In this document: one piece after another, positions 11,144 to 28,822 of the stretch
Layout: each line of letters begins with the position of its first letter
How positions within the stretch are numbered: position 1 is the first letter of the stretch
From: Burkholderiales bacterium RIFOXYD12_FULL_59_19
GTDB lineage: Bacteria; Pseudomonadota; Gammaproteobacteria; Burkholderiales; Burkholderiaceae_C
Direction of reading: 5' to 3'
Assembly (NCBI GenBank): GCA_001771065.1
Contig: MESQ01000018.1
Span: forward strand, 62,001 to 126,000
DNA length: 64,000 nucleotides
The notes under the pieces: generated by a model
What the model saw: only the letters and a program-made list of their open reading frames with translations
Databases searched by the model: none
What the model was told of the DNA's origin: nothing
Position numbers and translations under genes: made by a program

Positions 11144-12058
11144 TTAAATGGTTTCAAGTTGTGCACCAAGGGCGCGGTAGCCTTCGCGCACCGCTTGTGC
11201 CTCGGAAGGATCCAGTGGGCAGAGCGGTGCGCGCATGTTAAGCCACATGGCGTCGCCGGTTTGCTCGGCCAGCATCTGCTTGTAGACACCGACAAAGGGC
11301 ATGTTGGGACGAATGCTCAGCAAGGCGAGCAGGGACAGGATCAACTGGCTGTCCGCGGGGCTCACCATGTGTGGGCTCTTGATCACGCGCGCCATCAGGC
11401 GCGGTGCCACGTTGGCCAGGCCGTTGATTGAGCCTGAGCCACCCGCGCACATCACTTCGGCTACATGTTGTTCGCTGCCGGTCAGGATGGACAGCGACGG
11501 GAATGCCTTGGCCAGTGCCAGTGCGTGCGCCAGACTACCGCCGCTGTCCTTGACGCCCATCACCTGCCCGGGGTGACGGCGCACCAGTTCGGCAATGGCC
11601 TCGTGCGAGAAGCCGAAGGTGCTCATGGCCGGGAAGTGGTACAGCAACAGTTTGAGCTGGTCGTCGCCGATGCCGTGCACCACTTGTGAGACCGATTCAA
11701 TGACACCCGCTTCGCGCGGCTGGTTGAAGTAAAAGGGCGGCATGAACATCTGGCGGTGCACCCCCAGGCGGGCGGCATGGCGGCCCAGTTCAATGGCATC
11801 AATCAAGGCCAGTGCGGTGGTGGTCACCAGGATCTGGTCGGCCTGAATGCCGCTACCGATCATCGATTCCAGCAGGGCTTTGCGCTCGGCCACAGAAAAG
11901 GCCGGGCCTTCACCCGTGGTGCCAAACAGGGTCACGCCGTTGCAACCGGCCGCAAGCATGTGTTTGGCATGGGCCAGGGCGCGCGGGGTGTCGAGCGCAC
12001 CGTTTGGTGCGACTGGCAGTAACAGGGCGGGCCAGAGCCCGTGGATGTCAGGGTTCAC
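11144..12058 (-). CDS. DHDPS/NAL-family aldolase or dehydratase
   Basis: 304 residues from a GTG at 12058 that overlaps the stop of the regulator gene (GTGA) and follows AAGGAA; this start matches the family length better than an ATG 14 codons upstream. The motif FGTTGEGPAFS, the active-site tyrosine in LLLYHFP and the Schiff-base lysine in VMGVKDSGG are all present. The family cleaves or dehydrates 2-keto acids through an enzyme-bound imine. In this locus the likely substrate is 2-keto-3-deoxy-L-fuconate or a 2-keto-3-deoxypentonate, giving pyruvate plus an aldehyde. A role in lysine synthesis is unlikely given the neighbours. Confidence 0.82.
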   Translation of the reverse strand: MNPDIHGLWPALLLPVAPNGALDTPRALAHAKHMLAAGCNGVTLFGTTGEGPAFSVAERKALLESMIGSGIQADQILVTTTALALIDAIELGRHAARLGVHRQMFMPPFYFNQPREAGVIESVSQVVHGIGDDQLKLLLYHFPAMSTFGFSHEAIAELVRRHPGQVMGVKDSGGSLAHALALAKAFPSLSILTGSEQHVAEVMCAGGSGSINGLANVAPRLMARVIKSPHMVSPADSQLILSLLALLSIRPNMPFVGVYKQMLAEQTGDAMWLNMRAPLCPLDPSEAQAVREGYRALGAQLETI

Positions 12059-12843
12059 GTGATGTTCCTTGGGGTTGAGGGGATTAAAGAGGGTTCCCAT
12101 TCGCTGCGCACCTGTTCCAGCGGCGCCGTCATGACGCGGTTGCGGGCGCTGTTGATGTGCTCGTCGAGCAGTTGGGTAGCGTCCAGAGCATCGCGGCGCA
12201 GCAGGGCCGCAATAAAGCGCAGGTGCTCCTGCATGGCCGGGATCAGGCGCGCCGGGGTGATGACACTGTGTTCCAGCTTGATGAGTCGGACCCGCAGGCT
12301 GTTGACACGGTAAATTTCGGACAGGATGTCATTGCCCAGGGCATCTACCAGCCGGTCGTGCAGGCCCCAGTCGACCGCCTGGGCGTCATCGAGCAGGGTG
12401 CGATCGCTGGCCAGCGGTTGATCCAGCGCGCTGGCGCGGCTCAGGATGTCCTGGTGGCTCGCTTCGATGGCTTGTAGTTCGCTGTCGCTGGCGCTGTGCA
12501 CAAAATGCTGCACCGCTTCGCGCTCGATCAGGCTGCGCACCTGAAACGCGTTGCGGATCAGCTTGAGGTCAACGTGTGCAATTTGCAGGCCGCGTTGCGG
12601 CACGGTCTTGATCAGGCCACCGGCTTCCAGCCGCGGGATCATTTCGCGCACCGCTGCCAGCGGCATGTCGAGCAGGGTCATCAGTTCACGCTGCGACACA
12701 AACTGGCCGCTGCGGATCTTGCCACTCAGGATCTGCTGGGTAAAACCCTGGTAGGCGCGCGCCCGCTGGGTGACGCCCTGGGCGTTCTCTGCCAGCGCTG
12801 TTCGCGGCGCCTTGGCACGGGCAGTTTGAACTTTGGCGCTCAT
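12055..12843 (-). CDS. GntR-family transcriptional regulator, FCD subfamily
   Basis: 262 residues. A winged helix (about residues 30-95, with SQRELMTLLDMPLAAVREMIPRLEAGGLI) is followed by an FCD effector domain (about 105-235) containing the metal-ligand pattern D..H...H (DWGLHDRLVDAL, AMQEHLRFIAAL, DEHINSAR). It starts within the fucU stop (ATGA overlap) and ends within the start of the lyase gene. As a member of the operon it probably represses both divergent arms, using a sugar acid as inducer. Two TAAC/GTTA palindromes at 13289-13315 are the best operator candidates. Confidence 0.88.
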   Translation of the reverse strand: MSAKVQTARAKAPRTALAENAQGVTQRARAYQGFTQQILSGKIRSGQFVSQRELMTLLDMPLAAVREMIPRLEAGGLIKTVPQRGLQIAHVDLKLIRNAFQVRSLIEREAVQHFVHSASDSELQAIEASHQDILSRASALDQPLASDRTLLDDAQAVDWGLHDRLVDALGNDILSEIYRVNSLRVRLIKLEHSVITPARLIPAMQEHLRFIAALLRRDALDATQLLDEHINSARNRVMTAPLEQVRSEWEPSLIPSTPRNIT

Positions 12844-21774: not shown

Positions 21775-21778
<4 letters not shown>

Positions 21779-22305
21779 GCCAGTTTCCAGCCGAGTTCCC
21801 GGTGCCGGGCCAGGTGCCGTGGGGTCCAGGAGGTGAGTGACTTATGCACAAAGTGGTGCCGCGTCACGTGGTAGCTGGGGTCAAACCCGTAGAAGTTGCG
21901 GTGCATGTGGGCGATCTCCTCGTTGCGGTAGGCAGCCAGCTCGGCGTGAAAGGCCGACACATCGCCGGGCAGGCAGGCATCGGTCAGGCCGAGGGCTTGC
22001 GCGCCCTGCGCCGTGAGCGGCTGGCGGTTGTGCATGACGGCCCAGTCCAGCGCCGACGGCCGGCGGTCGCCCACCACGCCGGGGTGGACGATCAGGCACA
22101 CATGGCGTGACCAGACCGACTCGGGAACGGCACGGCGCAGGTAGGGCGCCACGATCAGATCAGGCGCGAACAAGGCTGCGGCCTCTTCGGTCACCGAGTC
22201 GCTGATGTCGAATTCGACCGATACCAGGTGCCCGCGCTGGCGCAGCTCTGCACCCAGGCGCTGGGTCAGGCTGTTGAAGGCGTGGGAGAGCAGCAGGATG
22301 CGCAT
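21775..22305 (-). pseudogene. hoxX: hoxX remnant: internally deleted CO-forming maturation factor
   Basis: 176 codons from the ATG at 22305. Residues 1-92 match the start of HoxX (MRILLLSHAFNSLTQRL ... VHPGVVGDRRPSALDWA), part of its formyl-THF domain. Residue 94 onward jumps to the end of its crotonase-like domain (LTAQGAQALGLTDACLPGD) and then, perhaps after a second gap, to the C-terminal tail (AYRNEEIAHMHRNFYGFD ... HFVHK). Full HoxX is roughly 550-600 residues as I recall, so about two thirds is gone, including most of both catalytic domains, yet the frame is kept. Intact HoxX makes the active-site CO from formyl-THF in air. It may be a decayed gene or a reduced protein with a residual role. 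Confidence 0.8.
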
Positions 22306-22316
22306 GGCGTTGGCTG

Positions 22317-23381
22317 TCAGCAAATGCGTGGAAGTTGCTCGCCGGCCAGCCAATCAACAATACGCCGGCCGCCAAAGGCGGTGGTGAGCTGAACAAAATG
22401 GTGGTCATCGGCCAGCACCCCGCCAATCCGGGCGGCATCCCGGCCCAGCGGGTGCGCGTGCATCACGTCCAGCAACTGCGGTGCATCGGCCGCAGCGCAG
22501 ATCACAATCAGCTTGCCTTCGTTGGCGACATAGAGCGGGTCCAGCCCCAAAAATTCGCAGGCGGCAGCCACCACCGGTTTGATCGGAATGGCTTTCTCAT
22601 GCAGCATCATGCCCACGCCGGATTGCTCGGCGATTTCGTTCAAGGTAGAGGCCAGCCCACCGCGCGTGGGGTCGCGCAGGCAGCGGATGTCGGCGCCAGT
22701 GGCCAGCAGCCTGGCAATCAGGCCATGCAGCGCCGCCGTGTCTGATTCAATGGCTGCCTCGAACGTGAGGTTTTCGCGCTGGCTCATGATCGCCACACCG
22801 TGGTCGCCCATCGTGCCCGACACCAGCACCACATCGTCCGCCCGCGCAAGGGCACCGCCCAAGTCCAGTCCGTCTGGCAACACGCCGACACCGGTGGTGG
22901 TGATGAAAATGCCGTCGCCTTTTCCCCGCTCCACCACCTTGGTGTCGCCGGTGACCACCGGTACACCGGCACTGCTTGCGGCACGCGCCATCGATTCGAC
23001 GATGCGCGTCAGGTCGGCCAGCGCAAAGCCTTCTTCCAGAATAAAGCCTGCGGCCAGGTACAGCGGTGTGGCACCCATCACCGCCACGTCGTTGAGCGTG
23101 CCGTGCACTGATAAGCAGCCGATGTCGCCGCCGGGAAAGAACAGGGGTGAGACCACATGGCAGTCGGTGGACATCACCAGCCGCGCCGGCTGGCCGTTGA
23201 GCACGGGCGCGGGCAGCACGGCGCCGTCATTGCCCTGGCCCAGATAGGTGTTGCCCAGGTGTTTGGCAAACAGCTCGGAAATCAGTTGCACCATGGCCCG
23301 CCCGCCCGAGCCGTGTGTCATGTCGACCCGGCCGTGTTTCAGGTCGAGCGGGCGGATGTAGCCGCGTTTGACTTCACTCAT
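22317..23381 (-). CDS. hypE: Hydrogenase maturation protein HypE
   Basis: 354 residues ending PRIC; the terminal cysteine receives carbamoyl from HypF and is dehydrated to the thiocyanate that becomes the CN ligands. The PurM-like ATP-binding features DMTHGSGGRAM, GQGNDGAVL, STDCHVVSPLFFPGGDIG and CLRDPTRGG are present. It overlaps the end of hypD by four bases (ATGA), and 11 bases separate it from the hoxX remnant. Confidence 0.95.
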   Translation of the reverse strand: MSEVKRGYIRPLDLKHGRVDMTHGSGGRAMVQLISELFAKHLGNTYLGQGNDGAVLPAPVLNGQPARLVMSTDCHVVSPLFFPGGDIGCLSVHGTLNDVAVMGATPLYLAAGFILEEGFALADLTRIVESMARAASSAGVPVVTGDTKVVERGKGDGIFITTTGVGVLPDGLDLGGALARADDVVLVSGTMGDHGVAIMSQRENLTFEAAIESDTAALHGLIARLLATGADIRCLRDPTRGGLASTLNEIAEQSGVGMMLHEKAIPIKPVVAAACEFLGLDPLYVANEGKLIVICAAADAPQLLDVMHAHPLGRDAARIGGVLADDHHFVQLTTAFGGRRIVDWLAGEQLPRIC

Positions 23382-24505
23382 GCCATGTCCTTGTGGCGGC
23401 CGTAACTGTAGTGCGCCGCACAGGCGCCTTCACTGCTGACCATACACGAGCCGACCGGGTTTTCGGGGGTACAAACGGTGCCAAAAATCTTGCAATCTTG
23501 CGGGCGCTTGACGCCGCGCAAAATGGCGCCGCATTCGCAGGCCTTGTTGTCAGGCACCGATGTGTAGTCCATTTTGAAGCGGCGCTAGGCGTCGAAAGCG
23601 CCGTATTTTTCGCGGATTTTCAGGGCCGAATAGGGCACCATGGACAGGCCGCGCCATTCGAATTCATGGCGCAACTCGAACACCTCGGCGACGCGGTCTT
23701 GTGCCTTGCGGTTGCCGTCGCGGCAGACGGCGCGGGCAAATTCGTTCTCGACCTCGGCGCGGCCGTCGTTGACCTGGGCAATGAGCATCAGAATAGCCTG
23801 CATCACGTCGAGTGGCTCAAAGCCGGCAATCACCACCGGCTTGCGGTATTCCTCGGCAAAAAATTCATAGGGCCGACTGCCGATCACGGTGGACACATGC
23901 GCCGGGCCGATGAAGCCATCGATCGGCACCGTGCCCCATTGCCGGACTTCGGGCGACTCCAGAATCTGGGTGATGGCGGCGGGCGTGAGCACGTGGCAGC
24001 ACAGCACGCTGAAGTTGGTCAGCTGCTCCTGTGCGGCTTGCAAAATGGCCAGCGCGGTCGGCGGCGTCGTGGTCTCGAAGCCAATGGCAAAAAACACCAC
24101 CTCGCGCTGCGGGTTATCGCGCGCAATCTGCAGCGCATCGAGCGTGGAATAGACCATGCGGATGTCGCCGCCGCGCGCCTTGGCTTTGAGCAAGGAGAGG
24201 CTGTTGGAGGCGGGCACGCGCAAGGTGTCGCCGTAGCTGCACAAGATCACGTATTGCTGCAGCGCCAGCTTGATCGCCATGTCGATGCGGCCAATCGGCA
24301 ATACACACACCGGGCAGCCGGGGCCGTGCACCAAGCGCACATTGGCGGGCAGCAGGTCGGAGAGGCCGTAGCGTGAAATGGCGTGGGTGTGGCCGCCGCA
24401 AAATTCCATGAAACTGTAGTTGCGCTGGGGCTGCGCCAACCTGGCAATTTTCCCGGCCAGCGTTTGAGCCACCGCGCCGTCGCGAAACTCGTCGATGTAT
24501 TTCAT
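23378..24505 (-). pseudogene. hypD: hypD interrupted by an in-frame TAG codon
   Basis: Codons 1-306 encode the HypD core (FMEFCGGHTHAI, HGPGCPVCVLP, GFETTTP, PAHVSTVIG), ending at a TAG at 23585-23587. The same frame continues RRFKMDYTSVPDNKACECG through to a normal terminus at 23378 overlapping hypE. This tail holds the cysteines that bind the [4Fe-4S] cluster (CECG, DCKIFG, VCTPE, GSCMVSSEGACAAHY). HypD relatives read FDAERRF here, so a single change of GAG to TAG explains it. No frameshift is involved. HypD assembles Fe(CN)2CO with HypC and HypE, so truncation should stop all [NiFe] maturation unless read-through, a suppressor tRNA, restart at the ATG at 23572 or a second hypD exists; a sequencing error is also possible. 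Confidence 0.9.
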
Positions 24506-24744
24506 GGCGCCGTCAGGGCTGACTCAGACATTTCCGAGAACAGCGCCAGCGTGCGCTCGGCCTCTTCGGGGTCAAGCTTGGACAGCGCGTAACCCACATG
24601 CAAAATCACATAGTCGCCCACCTGCACATTGTCGAGCAGCGCCAGCGAGATTTCTTTCTTGACCCCGCCCAGATCCACCATGGCGTGCTCGCCGTCCGGG
24701 CCGCAGCCGACTTCAATCACCTTGACCGGTAGTGCAAGACACAT
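24502..24744 (-). CDS. hypC: Hydrogenase maturation chaperone HypC
   Basis: 80 residues beginning MCLALPVKV; Cys2, exposed after Met removal, carries the Fe(CN)2CO unit with HypD and contacts the large-subunit precursor. The OB-like pattern GGVKKEISLALLDNVQVGDYVILHVGYAL is typical. The stop overlaps the hypD start (ATGA). Its promoter-side neighbour hypF is about 770 bases away because a toxin-antitoxin pair in the other orientation lies between them. Confidence 0.95.
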   Translation of the reverse strand: MCLALPVKVIEVGCGPDGEHAMVDLGGVKKEISLALLDNVQVGDYVILHVGYALSKLDPEEAERTLALFSEMSESALTAP

Positions 24745-24817: not shown

Positions 24818-25234
24818 ATGAAAATTGTGATGGATACCGACACGATCGTTGCCGCTTTACGTAGTCCGGCGGGTGCGTCGGCGGAGTTGTTGCGAAGAGC
24901 GCGTCGCCAGGAAATCATCCTGGCTGCCAGTGTGAGTCTGTTCATGGAATATGAAGCGGTTTGCCAACGGCCGGAACATGCCTTGGTTGCTGGACTGGAC
25001 GAGTTGTCGGTGGGCAAATTTCTGGACGGTTTGGCGTGTATCGTCGAGCCGGTTGAAGTGCATTTTTTGTGGCGTCCGCAACTGCGCGATCCTGCCGACG
25101 AACTGGTGCTGGAGGCGGCCGTCAATGCTTCTGCACATGCGTTATTGACTTTCAACATGAAGCATTTTGCCAATGCGGCAGAGCAGTTTAGTTTGCGCGT
25201 GATGCAGCCCGGCCCATTTTTAAGGAGTTTGTGA
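24818..25234 (+). CDS. PIN-domain toxin (COG1569 type)
   Basis: 138 residues with the PIN acidic residues in VMDTDTIVAALRSP, FMEYEAVCQRP and DPADELVLEAAVNA, and the closing LLTFNMKHF. These proteins are Mg-dependent RNases that act as toxins. The downstream ribbon-helix-helix gene overlaps its stop (TGATG). The pair lies antisense inside the hyp operon between hypF and hypC, so transcripts from the hydrogenase promoter would run through it in reverse. The toxin preceding the antitoxin is the less common order for such pairs. Confidence 0.82.
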   Translation: MKIVMDTDTIVAALRSPAGASAELLRRARRQEIILAASVSLFMEYEAVCQRPEHALVAGLDELSVGKFLDGLACIVEPVEVHFLWRPQLRDPADELVLEAAVNASAHALLTFNMKHFANAAEQFSLRVMQPGPFLRSL

Positions 25235-25479
25235 TGAGTCAATTAAGCACCTATCCGTTGCGTTTGCCGCGCTCAATCAGAACCGGCGTGGAGCGCATGA
25301 GCAAGCAAGATGGCATCAGCATCAATCAGTTTGTCAGCATAGCCGTGGCTGAAAAGCTTGCCATGATGCAGGCCCAAGCATTTTTTGCGGAACGCCGCGC
25401 GCGTGCTGATATGAGCGCCTTTGACCAATTGATGCAGCGCAGTGGGGGGGAACCTCCACGCCCAGAGGACGAACCGTAG
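25234..25479 (+). CDS. Ribbon-helix-helix antitoxin
   Basis: 81 residues from the ATG at 25234 behind TAAGGAG; a GTG one codon earlier is less likely. The start STYPLRLPRSIRTGVERMS followed by GISINQFVSIAVAEKLA is a CopG/HicB-like DNA-binding fold. The C-terminal part (about 45-81) is hydrophilic and should be the flexible toxin-binding arm. It overlaps the PIN gene and presumably represses the pair's promoter. Confidence 0.78.
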   Translation: MSQLSTYPLRLPRSIRTGVERMSKQDGISINQFVSIAVAEKLAMMQAQAFFAERRARADMSAFDQLMQRSGGEPPRPEDEP

Positions 25480-25514: not shown

Positions 25515-27845
25515 TCATAACAAAGCTGAATGTGATGGGTGTGCCAAGCATGCCACCCAGGCCTGCCCGAGCGCGATGCTGGCGTCTCCGGGGGCGGTGC
25601 GTTGCGGCACCAGCACCGTGACGCCATTGTGTTGCAGATTTTGCCGCAGCGGTGCCGTGATTAGCGCGTTGAGAAAGCAACCACCACCCCAGGCCAGAGT
25701 GCGCAAACCGGTGGTTTGGACGGCTTGCATTACCCACTCGGTCAAGGCCGCCACCAGAGTGGCATGGAACACGGCGGCGGCTTGGCTGATGTCAACGGCA
25801 TCAATTAACGAACCCAGCATGGGAAACAGGTCAAGCTGGCCGTCGTCGCTGATGGCATAAGCCCCCGGCATGGGGGTCGGCCAGCCATGGGCTTCGATAT
25901 ACAACGTGGCCGCCTGCTCCAGCAACACGGCGGCCTGGGCCTCGTAGGCCATGGTGTGGCTCAGGCCGAGCAAGCCGGCCGCAGCATCGAACACCCGGCC
26001 CAGGCTCGACGTGCGCGGGCTGTTGAACTGGCGCGTCAGCATGGCGGCCACGGTGCTGGCCGCTGGATCCCGAAATCGTTGTGCAATCTCGGCGTTGCGC
26101 CCGAGTTCATGCAGCACGGCAGCCGCCATGCGCCAGGGTTCGCGCGCGCACCGGTCACCGCCCGGCATGGGCAAATGGCGCAGGTGGCCAAGGCGTTGGC
26201 ATTGCGCACCATCAACCTGCAGCAGTTCGCTGCCCCAGGCCGTGCCATCTGTGCCCAGCCCGACACCATCGAGTGCCAGGCCCAGCAGCGGGCCTTGCCA
26301 GCTGTGTTCGGCACAGACGGCGGCGATGTGGGCATGGTGGTGTTGCACGGCCAGGGTGGGCAGGCCATGGCGCTGCGCGTAGGCCACTGCAGCGCGTGTG
26401 CTGTAGTCGTCGGGGTGCAGGTCGTGCGTCACACGTTGTGGCTTGACATCCAGCAAATCGCATAGCCGTTGCACCGTTTCATCCTGAAAGTGGCAGCTGG
26501 CGGCGTTGTCCAGGCTGCCGATGTGGGGCGACAAAAAGGCGTCATGGCCGCGCGTGACGCAGACCGTGTTTTTCAGGTGGCTGCCAAAAGCCAGCACCGA
26601 CGCTCCGGACTGCGGCAGGCGAATGGCGGCAGGTGCGTAACCGCGGCTGCGGCGGATGAATTGCGCAGCGCCCGCCGTCACCTGGAGCACGCTGTCGTCG
26701 CAACGCGCCACGATGTCGCGGTCATGGTCCAGAAAAGCATCGGCAATGCCTGCCAGCCGGGTATGTGCCTCAGCCGTGTCGCGCACGATGGGCTCACCGC
26801 CCGGGTTGGCGCTGGTCATCACCAGCACCAGGGTTTGTGATTCGCCGAGCCAGGCCGTGCCATCGGGCCGACCAGCGGCTTCATGAAACAATAAAAAATG
26901 GATCGGCGTGGTCGGCAGCATCAGGCCCAGGCGTTGCAGACCGGGGGCGATGCCGGGCAGGGTCGCACCACAGGTGGCATGGGCGCGCAGCAACACGATG
27001 GGGCGCTCGCGGCTTTCCAGCAGGGTGCACTCGGCAGCTGATACCTGCGCATAGGGTGTCACGCTGGTGGCGTTGGCCAGCATCACGGCAAAGGGTTTGG
27101 CCTCGCGGTTCTTGCGCAAGCGCAGCCGCGCGACCACCAACGGGTTGCGCGCGTCGCAGGCCAGGTGGAAACCGCCCAGGCCTTTGATGGCGACGATCTG
27201 GCCGCGTTGCAGCAGCTCCAGGGTGCGCGCGATGGGATCGCCAGCCAAGGACTGGCCCTGTGCATCGGACAAACCTAAACGTGGGCCGCATTGCGGGCAA
27301 CAAGTGGTCTCGGCATGAAAACGCCGGTCGCTCGGCGCGGTGTAGTCAAGGCTGCAGTCCGGGCACAGCGGGAAGACCGCCATGCTGGTTTGCGGCCGGT
27401 CGTAGGGCAGGGCGCGGGTCACGGTGAAACGTGGGCCGCAATGGGTGCAGGTGATGAAGGCGTGACGATAACGTCGGCTTGACGGGTCGAACAGCTCGTG
27501 CAGGCAGGCGGCACAAACCGCCACGTCGGGGCCAATCGCGGTGGCGGCCTGGCCCGACTGGCTGGCAATGATGCTGAACGCAGTGAACGGCTCTGCCGCC
27601 AGGTTCTGCGCCTGCACGTTGTCAACACGTGCCAGCGGTGGCGCGTCAGTGCGCAAGCGTTGCAGCAACTCGGTCAAACGCGGCTGGCTGCCCTGGGCCA
27701 GGATTTCGACACCCTGGGCATCGTTGCGCACCCAGCCGTGCAGGCCGAGTTGCTGTGCCAGGCGCCAGACAAAGGGCCTGAAACCGACCCCTTGCACAAT
27801 GCCTTTGACGCGGATGTGCTGCGAAAGCAAGGCCAATGGCGCCAT
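25515..27845 (-). CDS. hypF: Carbamoyltransferase HypF
   Basis: 776 residues from the ATG at 27845, which overlaps the hypB stop (TGATG); an upstream ATG at 27986 would only add non-family sequence inside hypB. Domains in order: acylphosphatase (RVKGIVQGVGFRPFVW), two zinc fingers (CAACLHELF...CTHC and CPDCSLDY...CPQC), a YrdC-like domain (about 195-380), and a Kae1/TobZ-like carbamoyltransferase with HHHAHIAAVCAEH and WGGGCFLNALIT. It makes carbamoyl-AMP from carbamoyl phosphate and loads it on HypE, giving cyanide ligands. Confidence 0.94.
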   Translation of the reverse strand: MAPLALLSQHIRVKGIVQGVGFRPFVWRLAQQLGLHGWVRNDAQGVEILAQGSQPRLTELLQRLRTDAPPLARVDNVQAQNLAAEPFTAFSIIASQSGQAATAIGPDVAVCAACLHELFDPSSRRYRHAFITCTHCGPRFTVTRALPYDRPQTSMAVFPLCPDCSLDYTAPSDRRFHAETTCCPQCGPRLGLSDAQGQSLAGDPIARTLELLQRGQIVAIKGLGGFHLACDARNPLVVARLRLRKNREAKPFAVMLANATSVTPYAQVSAAECTLLESRERPIVLLRAHATCGATLPGIAPGLQRLGLMLPTTPIHFLLFHEAAGRPDGTAWLGESQTLVLVMTSANPGGEPIVRDTAEAHTRLAGIADAFLDHDRDIVARCDDSVLQVTAGAAQFIRRSRGYAPAAIRLPQSGASVLAFGSHLKNTVCVTRGHDAFLSPHIGSLDNAASCHFQDETVQRLCDLLDVKPQRVTHDLHPDDYSTRAAVAYAQRHGLPTLAVQHHHAHIAAVCAEHSWQGPLLGLALDGVGLGTDGTAWGSELLQVDGAQCQRLGHLRHLPMPGGDRCAREPWRMAAAVLHELGRNAEIAQRFRDPAASTVAAMLTRQFNSPRTSSLGRVFDAAAGLLGLSHTMAYEAQAAVLLEQAATLYIEAHGWPTPMPGAYAISDDGQLDLFPMLGSLIDAVDISQAAAVFHATLVAALTEWVMQAVQTTGLRTLAWGGGCFLNALITAPLRQNLQHNGVTVLVPQRTAPGDASIALGQAWVACLAHPSHSALL

Positions 27846-28822
27846 CAGGCCGGTGCGTTTGGTCTGGTTTGAAGTTGGACTTCGAGTTGCGCCTTGAGTT
27901 GCGCGATTTGGGCCTGCAGACTGGCCACGGTTTGTGCTTTGGCCGCATGGGCCTGGGCCATACCGTCGCGCAGATAGGCCAGCCACTCGCCCATGCCTTC
28001 GCCGCTGGTGGCGCTGAGCTGGATCACCCTGATCTGCGGATTGACCCGGCGCGCATAACCAATGGCGGCGTCCACGTCGTAACTCAGATGCGGCAGCAGG
28101 TCGATCTTGTTGAGCAGCATCAGGCTAGCGGCGCGGAACATGTCGGGGTACTTGATGGGTTTGTCTTCGCCCTCGGTTACCGAAAGGATCACCACCTTGT
28201 GCGCCTCGCCCAGGTCAAAAGCGGCCGGACACACCAGATTGCCTACGTTTTCGATCAGCAGCAGCGCGTCATCCGCCAGCTTGAGTTGGGCCATGGCGTG
28301 GCCCACCATGTGCGCGTCCAGGTGGCAGCCCTTGCCGGTGTTGATCTGGATGGCCTGGGCACCGCTGGCGCGAATGCGGTCGGCGTCCTGGCTGGTTTGT
28401 TGGTCACCCTCGATCACGGCCACTGGCGTGGCACCTAGCAGGGTGATGGTTTTGCACAGTAGCGTGGTCTTGCCCGAGCCCGGGCTGGAGACCAGATTGA
28501 GCGCAAACATGCCACGCTCGGCCAGGGCTTGCCGGTTGCGTGCGGCGTAGGCATTGTTCTTGGCCAGAATGTCCTGCTCGATCTGCACCATGCGGGCGGG
28601 CGGCACGCCGGGTGCATGTGAATGTGCTGGTGCCGGGTCGTGCGTGTGTTCGTGCTCATGCTCATGCTGATGAGCGTGAGCATGCGGTTGGGCCTGTTCG
28701 TGCGCATGGGTGTGTTCATGAACATGGCGGGTGCCATCGGCGTGGACATGCACATGGACATGCGCAGCTGCCTCGCCCTCGATTCTGACTTCACCTTCAC
28801 CACAACCACAGGTCACACACAT
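27845..28822 (-). CDS. hypB: Nickel-insertion GTPase HypB with histidine-rich region
   Basis: 325 residues from the ATG at 28822 ([11 protein letters not shown]), preceded by GAGGAGAA; this gives the conserved N-terminal CxxCGC nickel site. Residues about 20-70 contain over 20 histidines in HxH repeats, suited to nickel storage. The G domain shows [44 protein letters not shown] and LNKIDLLP. The C-terminus (about 285-320) forms a short heptad-like stretch. With HypA it delivers nickel to the large subunit. It is preceded by a nested stem-loop in the hypA-hypB gap. Confidence 0.94.

Follow-up and report, generated by a model that had tools for sequence, protein, structure and literature searches.

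How an otherwise intact hydrogenase operon can contain a dead essential maturase is the question raised by hypD1, the hypD gene of a hyb/hyp/hox operon in Burkholderiales bacterium RIFOXYD12_FULL_59_19 (genome G000), whose reading frame is interrupted by an in-frame TAG. The genome is a draft of 4.05 Mb in 97 contigs, 95.5% complete and with N-filled gaps, and the window, that is, the whole stretch of 64,000 nucleotides analysed, is G000:C18:62001-126000. In our view, the stop is most likely the sign that a redundant gene was lost recently; an inactive hydrogen metabolism and a novel mode of decoding are both less likely readings.

The interrupted hypD1 gene and its product

The features of the operon that bear on this question are as follows (positions are those of the window).

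24505-23378, minus strand: hypD1, whole reading frame, by translation
23585..24505, minus strand: hypD1 core, an open reading frame (ORF) of 306 aa that is closed by the in-frame TAG and retains C36, C64 and C67
23585..23587, minus strand: the in-frame TAG, HypD codon 307, with Glu encoded there in 142 of the 143 aligned rows
23378..23584, minus strand: hypD1 tail, 68 codons plus TGA, with the four [4Fe-4S] ligand cysteines and an in-frame ATG at 23572
22317..23381, minus strand: hypE (TIGR02124), intact, its start overlapping the end of hypD and preceded by an AAGGA-like site
24502..24744, minus strand: hypC (TIGR00074)
25515..27986, minus strand: hypF (TIGR00143), full length
21775..22305, minus strand: hoxX remnant of 176 codons with two in-frame deletions, by comparison with relative G750
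24818..25234, plus strand: PIN-domain toxin-like gene (PF13470, TIGR00305) between hypC and hypF, on the opposite strand to them
25231..25479, plus strand: ORF of 82 aa paired with the PIN gene, a presumed antitoxin with no family match

Translation of 24505-23378 gives HypD in one frame on both sides of the TAG and ends in a TGA that overlaps the hypE start, the AAGGA-like site of hypE being located within the hypD tail. The gene matches the HypD fold and family: the PF01924 profile spans the stop unbroken (515.4 bits), and the core by itself scores 405.6 bits over positions 2-288 of the 351 in the HypD profile. The tail is 94-97% identical to those of G021, G728, G735, G739, G750 and G752 and 90-93% identical to those of G726, G727 and L071, which rules out a chance resemblance to HypD. 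In a hypD alignment of 144 sequences, of which 143 rows were aligned over the tail (the fragment L032 was dropped by a length filter) and which represent 122 distinct proteins, many loci being the same gene fetched twice, codon 307 is GAG in 100 rows, GAA in 42 and TAG only in hypD1; a stop common to a clade is thereby ruled out. A preliminary description of this DNA had proposed a single HypD frame across the TAG, Glu at this position in relatives, an in-frame restart ATG at 23572 and loss of the cluster cysteines with the tail, all of which are borne out by the translation, the profile match and the alignment.

The accessible text of PMC9900092 gives the [4Fe-4S] ligands as C323, C336, C343 and C360 in Escherichia coli HypD and as C323, C338, C345 and C362 in the T. 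kodakarensis protein. With HypD1 numbered by sequence alignment to the solved T. kodakarensis HypD, the equivalents are residues 323, 338, 345 and 362, which are Cys in 122, 122, 122 and 121 of the 122 distinct rows, respectively, and every one of which lies beyond the TAG; the translated product therefore has none of the four ligand cysteines of a functional HypD. C36, C64 and C67 (E. coli C41, C69 and C72), the cysteines associated with the Fe(CN)2CO and thiol-disulfide function, are present (122 of 122 rows). According to the parts of these reports available, replacing C323 or C360 eliminated hydrogenase activity and reduced the amount of HypD (PMC9900092), and all four cluster ligands are described as essential (PMC12134894). 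The stop thus removes essential residues, as in a redundant pseudogene, and because the ligands lie behind it and published ligand exchanges abolish activity, the 306-residue HypD1 should not work.

A second hypD in the same genome and the lesions around the first

The earlier expectation that neither the Hyb enzyme nor the HoxBC sensor would function is not supported, since a search of the genome for a second hypD found an intact one. HypD2 (G000:C42:22317-21178, minus strand, 379 aa) is 72% identical to HypD1, keeps all cysteines and lies between HypE and HypC, so that the intact paralogue expected beside a redundant pseudogene is present. The remainder of the C42 locus encodes HoxJ, HoxC, HoxB, HoxA, an intact HoxX of 599 aa, a short HypF of 380 aa (presumably resembling Cupriavidus HypF1), HypB, HypA and a HupK-like protein. 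Contig C69, on which the RF1 gene prfA is also found, has towards its end genes for both hydrogenase subunits (small and large), a cytochrome b and a maturation protease, and breaks off in the opening codons of a HypC-like gene. When C42 is read from its opposite end, it starts within a HypC-family gene (PF01455 positions 16-64), after which come genes of the HyaE and HupH families. Because this HypC-family gene runs over the C69/C42 break, C42 belongs to G000 and is not a contaminating contig, and we take C69/C42 to be one complete Cupriavidus-like membrane-bound-hydrogenase locus of the same organism, split by a contig break. The composition of C42 agrees with that of G000 (GC 0.61, tetranucleotide r 0.98), although this is no proof, as congeners are equal in this respect (G756 0.983, G021 0.981). 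HypD2 as a fresh duplicate of HypD1 is ruled out by a quick HypD tree (SH-aLRT only), in which the two fall into separate clades that each include other genus members.

Two further observations concern the rest of this genome. An HI1420-type addiction-module antidote gene lies behind the C42-locus hypF (L033, G000:C42:25506-26149), and after it the 3' end of hypF occurs a second time; it looks as though the module displaced the original hypF tail and brought one of its own. More hydrogenase large-subunit-like genes are found beyond those of the window and C42 (G000:C22:26919-28151 and G000:C69:117484-119136), and several enzymes would therefore depend on HypD.

Both locus types also occur in the congener G738. 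On its contig C64, window-type hypA, hypB, hypF and hypC are followed by a frame-broken, cut-off hypD of ~80 codons (L245, about 11933-12180), behind which no hypE was found in the 19 kb fetched; on C99, the C42-type locus has intact hypD, hypE, hoxX, hoxA, hoxB and hoxC, and a hoxJ cut by the end of the fetched stretch. Both genomes seen with both locus types, G000 and G738, have lost the window-type hypD, and it may be that this locus loses hypD where the two types meet and that the loci become mutually dependent. Two hypD copies each, none broken, are present in the congeners G023 and G756, in pairings that differ from the window's in the tree, and G401, of the same order, has two full copies with no stop in either. 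Apparent C-terminal damage in one G023 copy is instead an N run in the assembly.

Within the window operon, hoxX is damaged as well, as the preliminary description had noted. Compared with G750 it lacks 1065 bp and 99 bp, both multiples of three, with the frame into hoxA kept, and the G750 ends of the two lost pieces share 5 and 6 bases. The first deletion removes NPHY...GSE and, judged by spacing, would include the Tyr and Glu for which a catalytic role in HypX has been proposed (PMC6802093, accessible text). Among relatives, G739, G750, G021 and G728 have a full-length HoxX, and that of G752 is truncated by a contig end; downstream of hypE no hoxX turned up in 8.1 kb of G735, 7.7 kb of G727 or 6.7 kb of L071, so the gene is dispensable to this operon. 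Selection still constrains the remnant (dN 0.056, dS 0.33); the corresponding values for these stretches in G750 compared with G739 are 0.047 and 0.38. When the window-gene proteins were compared with their kin for further stops, 42 rows were flagged; judged by position, with an ORF-by-ORF check of 39.3-41.2 kb, these look like hypD, overruns of a gene start or end (hypE, hoxJ) and apparently spurious reverse-frame or overlapping ORFs.

A PIN toxin-antitoxin-like pair is also found at the same hypF/hypC junction in G739 (L208 10425-10900), where the PIN match is shortened. The pair is absent from G752, G021, G728 and L071 and from G735 and G750, the nearest hypD-tree relatives of G000 and G739, respectively; the proposal that the insertion predates the hypD stop, on the ground that G739 shares it, was dropped, as the tree pairs G000 with G735 and G739 with G750. 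In other relatives, insertions of 3.3 kb (G021:C65:20163-23441) and 1.1 kb (L070:6276-7394) separate hypD from hypE, with ORFs that we take to be DUF262- and DUF1016-like, and insertions seem to recur at hyp gene junctions.

Compared with seven relatives, HypD1 has five unique sense residues, none of them in the tail, and the relatives have 4, 6, 7, 7, 8, 11 and 23; by this count HypD1 is not fast-evolving. The tail has no unique change at 159 nonsynonymous sites, for which a simple Poisson estimate places the loss at less than about 0.02 changes per site, around a tenth of the branch since G735 (dS 0.36). Relaxed selection, which a redundant pseudogene would show after its loss, is not seen, the tail being without decay; this would fit a very recent loss and, equally, an error.

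Error, read-through or a split protein

How rare such stops are bears directly on the possibility of an error. In overlapping samples of the genus, order and family searched for stops, hypD was found in 60 of 89, 127 of 399 and 64 of 299 genomes, respectively, and an internal stop in G000 only, apart from a TGA that, in the family sample, lies in a frame-broken G229 fragment; the frame-broken remnant of G738 escaped this counter. Plasmid records gave 15 matches at 60-80% identity, and among the literature matches listed on hypD and hydrogenase maturation no in-frame stop codon is mentioned. Against uniqueness stands L098 (6294-7412) of the draft genome G771, with a separate isolated TAG at codon 163 of hypD, the rest of that operon being readable; one hypD was found in that fragmented draft, and no tRNA with a CTA anticodon was found by ARAGORN at 29 of its 30 tRNA loci (the remaining place is covered by the neighbouring locus).

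The main rival to redundant loss, named from the outset as a sequencing error, is that the TAG is not fixed, being either a base-calling or consensus error or the allele of a minority strain in the draft, so that hypD1 would be an ordinary intact gene. The fragmentation of the draft, with its N-filled gaps, the perfectly conserved tail and the isolated TAG in another draft all favour it, whereas isolated hypD stops remain rare (2 of 143 aligned rows) in a set that includes many drafts, and the structural lesion of hoxX in the same operon, the spare in the genome and the parallel loss in G738 point the other way. We consider this reading unlikely, and the TAG is probably present in the organism and not in the assembly alone.

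If the TAG is real, a full-length HypD1 could be made by amber read-through or suppression, in keeping with the in-frame conservation of the tail; the draft has no Asp, Glu or Ala(GGC) tRNA, and a changed tRNA-Glu is conceivable. However, the RF1 gene is present, a CTA anticodon, the mark of the suppressor that had been suggested as a thing to look for, is found in none of the 41 tRNA matches of the draft, all of which were read, hybC of the window operon itself ends in TAG (one of 16 whole genes listed) and none of the relatives examined has the TAG. Programmed read-through, one of the readings initially put forward, thus gains no positive support and is very improbable.

Much the same low standing is given to a two-part HypD, made of the 306-residue core and a 64-residue cluster-bearing peptide. 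The ATG at 23572 lies in frame five codons past the stop, its ORF has all four ligand cysteines, and a restart there would keep ribosomes moving towards hypE. The same Met is nevertheless found in relatives that lack the stop (FKMDY in G021, G739 and L012), and because it is inherited the ATG did not arise as a start; there is no clear ribosome-binding site before it, and the genus, order and family searches gave no readable core-plus-tail pair on one contig, the hypD fragments there being at contig ends or frame-broken. A working split HypD, also among the initial suggestions, is thus unsupported, and that a real TAG leaves HypD1 working by either route, as read-through or as a naturally split Fe(CN)2CO scaffold, is altogether highly unlikely.

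The probable loss of a spare gene and its known counterparts

The reading that we judge probable, and which the preliminary description had listed as very recent inactivation, is that hypD1 has undergone a recent nonsense loss as a redundant gene, tolerated because a second intact hypD (and hoxX) is present in the genome. In the proposed model, a recent nonsense change cuts hypD1 of the window operon at codon 307, and any HypD1 product, lacking the [4Fe-4S] cluster, would be non-functional and probably unstable. HypD2 and HoxX2 would be supplied in trans from the C69/C42 locus, with HypD2 probably serving the HypC-type chaperones of both loci, so that the window Hyb enzyme and HoxBC sensor would still be matured. 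The gutted window hoxX would be a second loss of the same kind, and both its in-frame deletions and the ATG close behind the hypD stop would leave the downstream genes unaffected. Precedents for such sharing come from the accessible portions of two reports: in E. coli a single HypD cooperates with HypC as well as HybG (PMC9002611), and the second Cupriavidus hyp set matured the soluble hydrogenase in E. coli to 0.15 compared with 1.95 U/mg, the former still exceeding the HypC1D1 and HypE1F2 deletions (PMC3702609), so that cross-use of hyp sets is real though it can be weak. Counting against redundant loss, HypD1 and HypD2 differ by 28%, the isolated TAG of G771 occurs where only one hypD was found, and the pairs of G023 and G756 are unbroken.

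Loss of a spare would remove the apparent paradox, and the TAG, correctly seen, would be mostly ordinary. It also carries the warning that a single broken hyp gene is no ground for calling an organism hydrogenase-negative, and with two congeners in which the window-type hypD is lost, HypD exchange among several HypC-type chaperones would become testable.

Set beside known systems, hypD1 resembles HypD (PF01924, TIGR00075), the scaffold of [NiFe]-hydrogenase maturation, in sequence, gene order and the overlaps with hypC and hypE, and has all conserved cysteines when read across the stop; it differs in being broken at codon 307, the core alone having no cluster ligand. Its single in-frame stop, intact paralogue, degraded neighbouring gene and the parallel loss in G738 are those of a nonsense pseudogene of a redundant paralogue, although, in contrast to a typical one, it has no further decay yet and is either very young or not fixed. 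Like Cupriavidus necator with pHG1 (hypC1D1E1 and hypC2D2E2; accessible text of PMC3702609), G000 has two hypD genes in two largely parallel maturation sets, in its case with one hypD and one hoxX broken.
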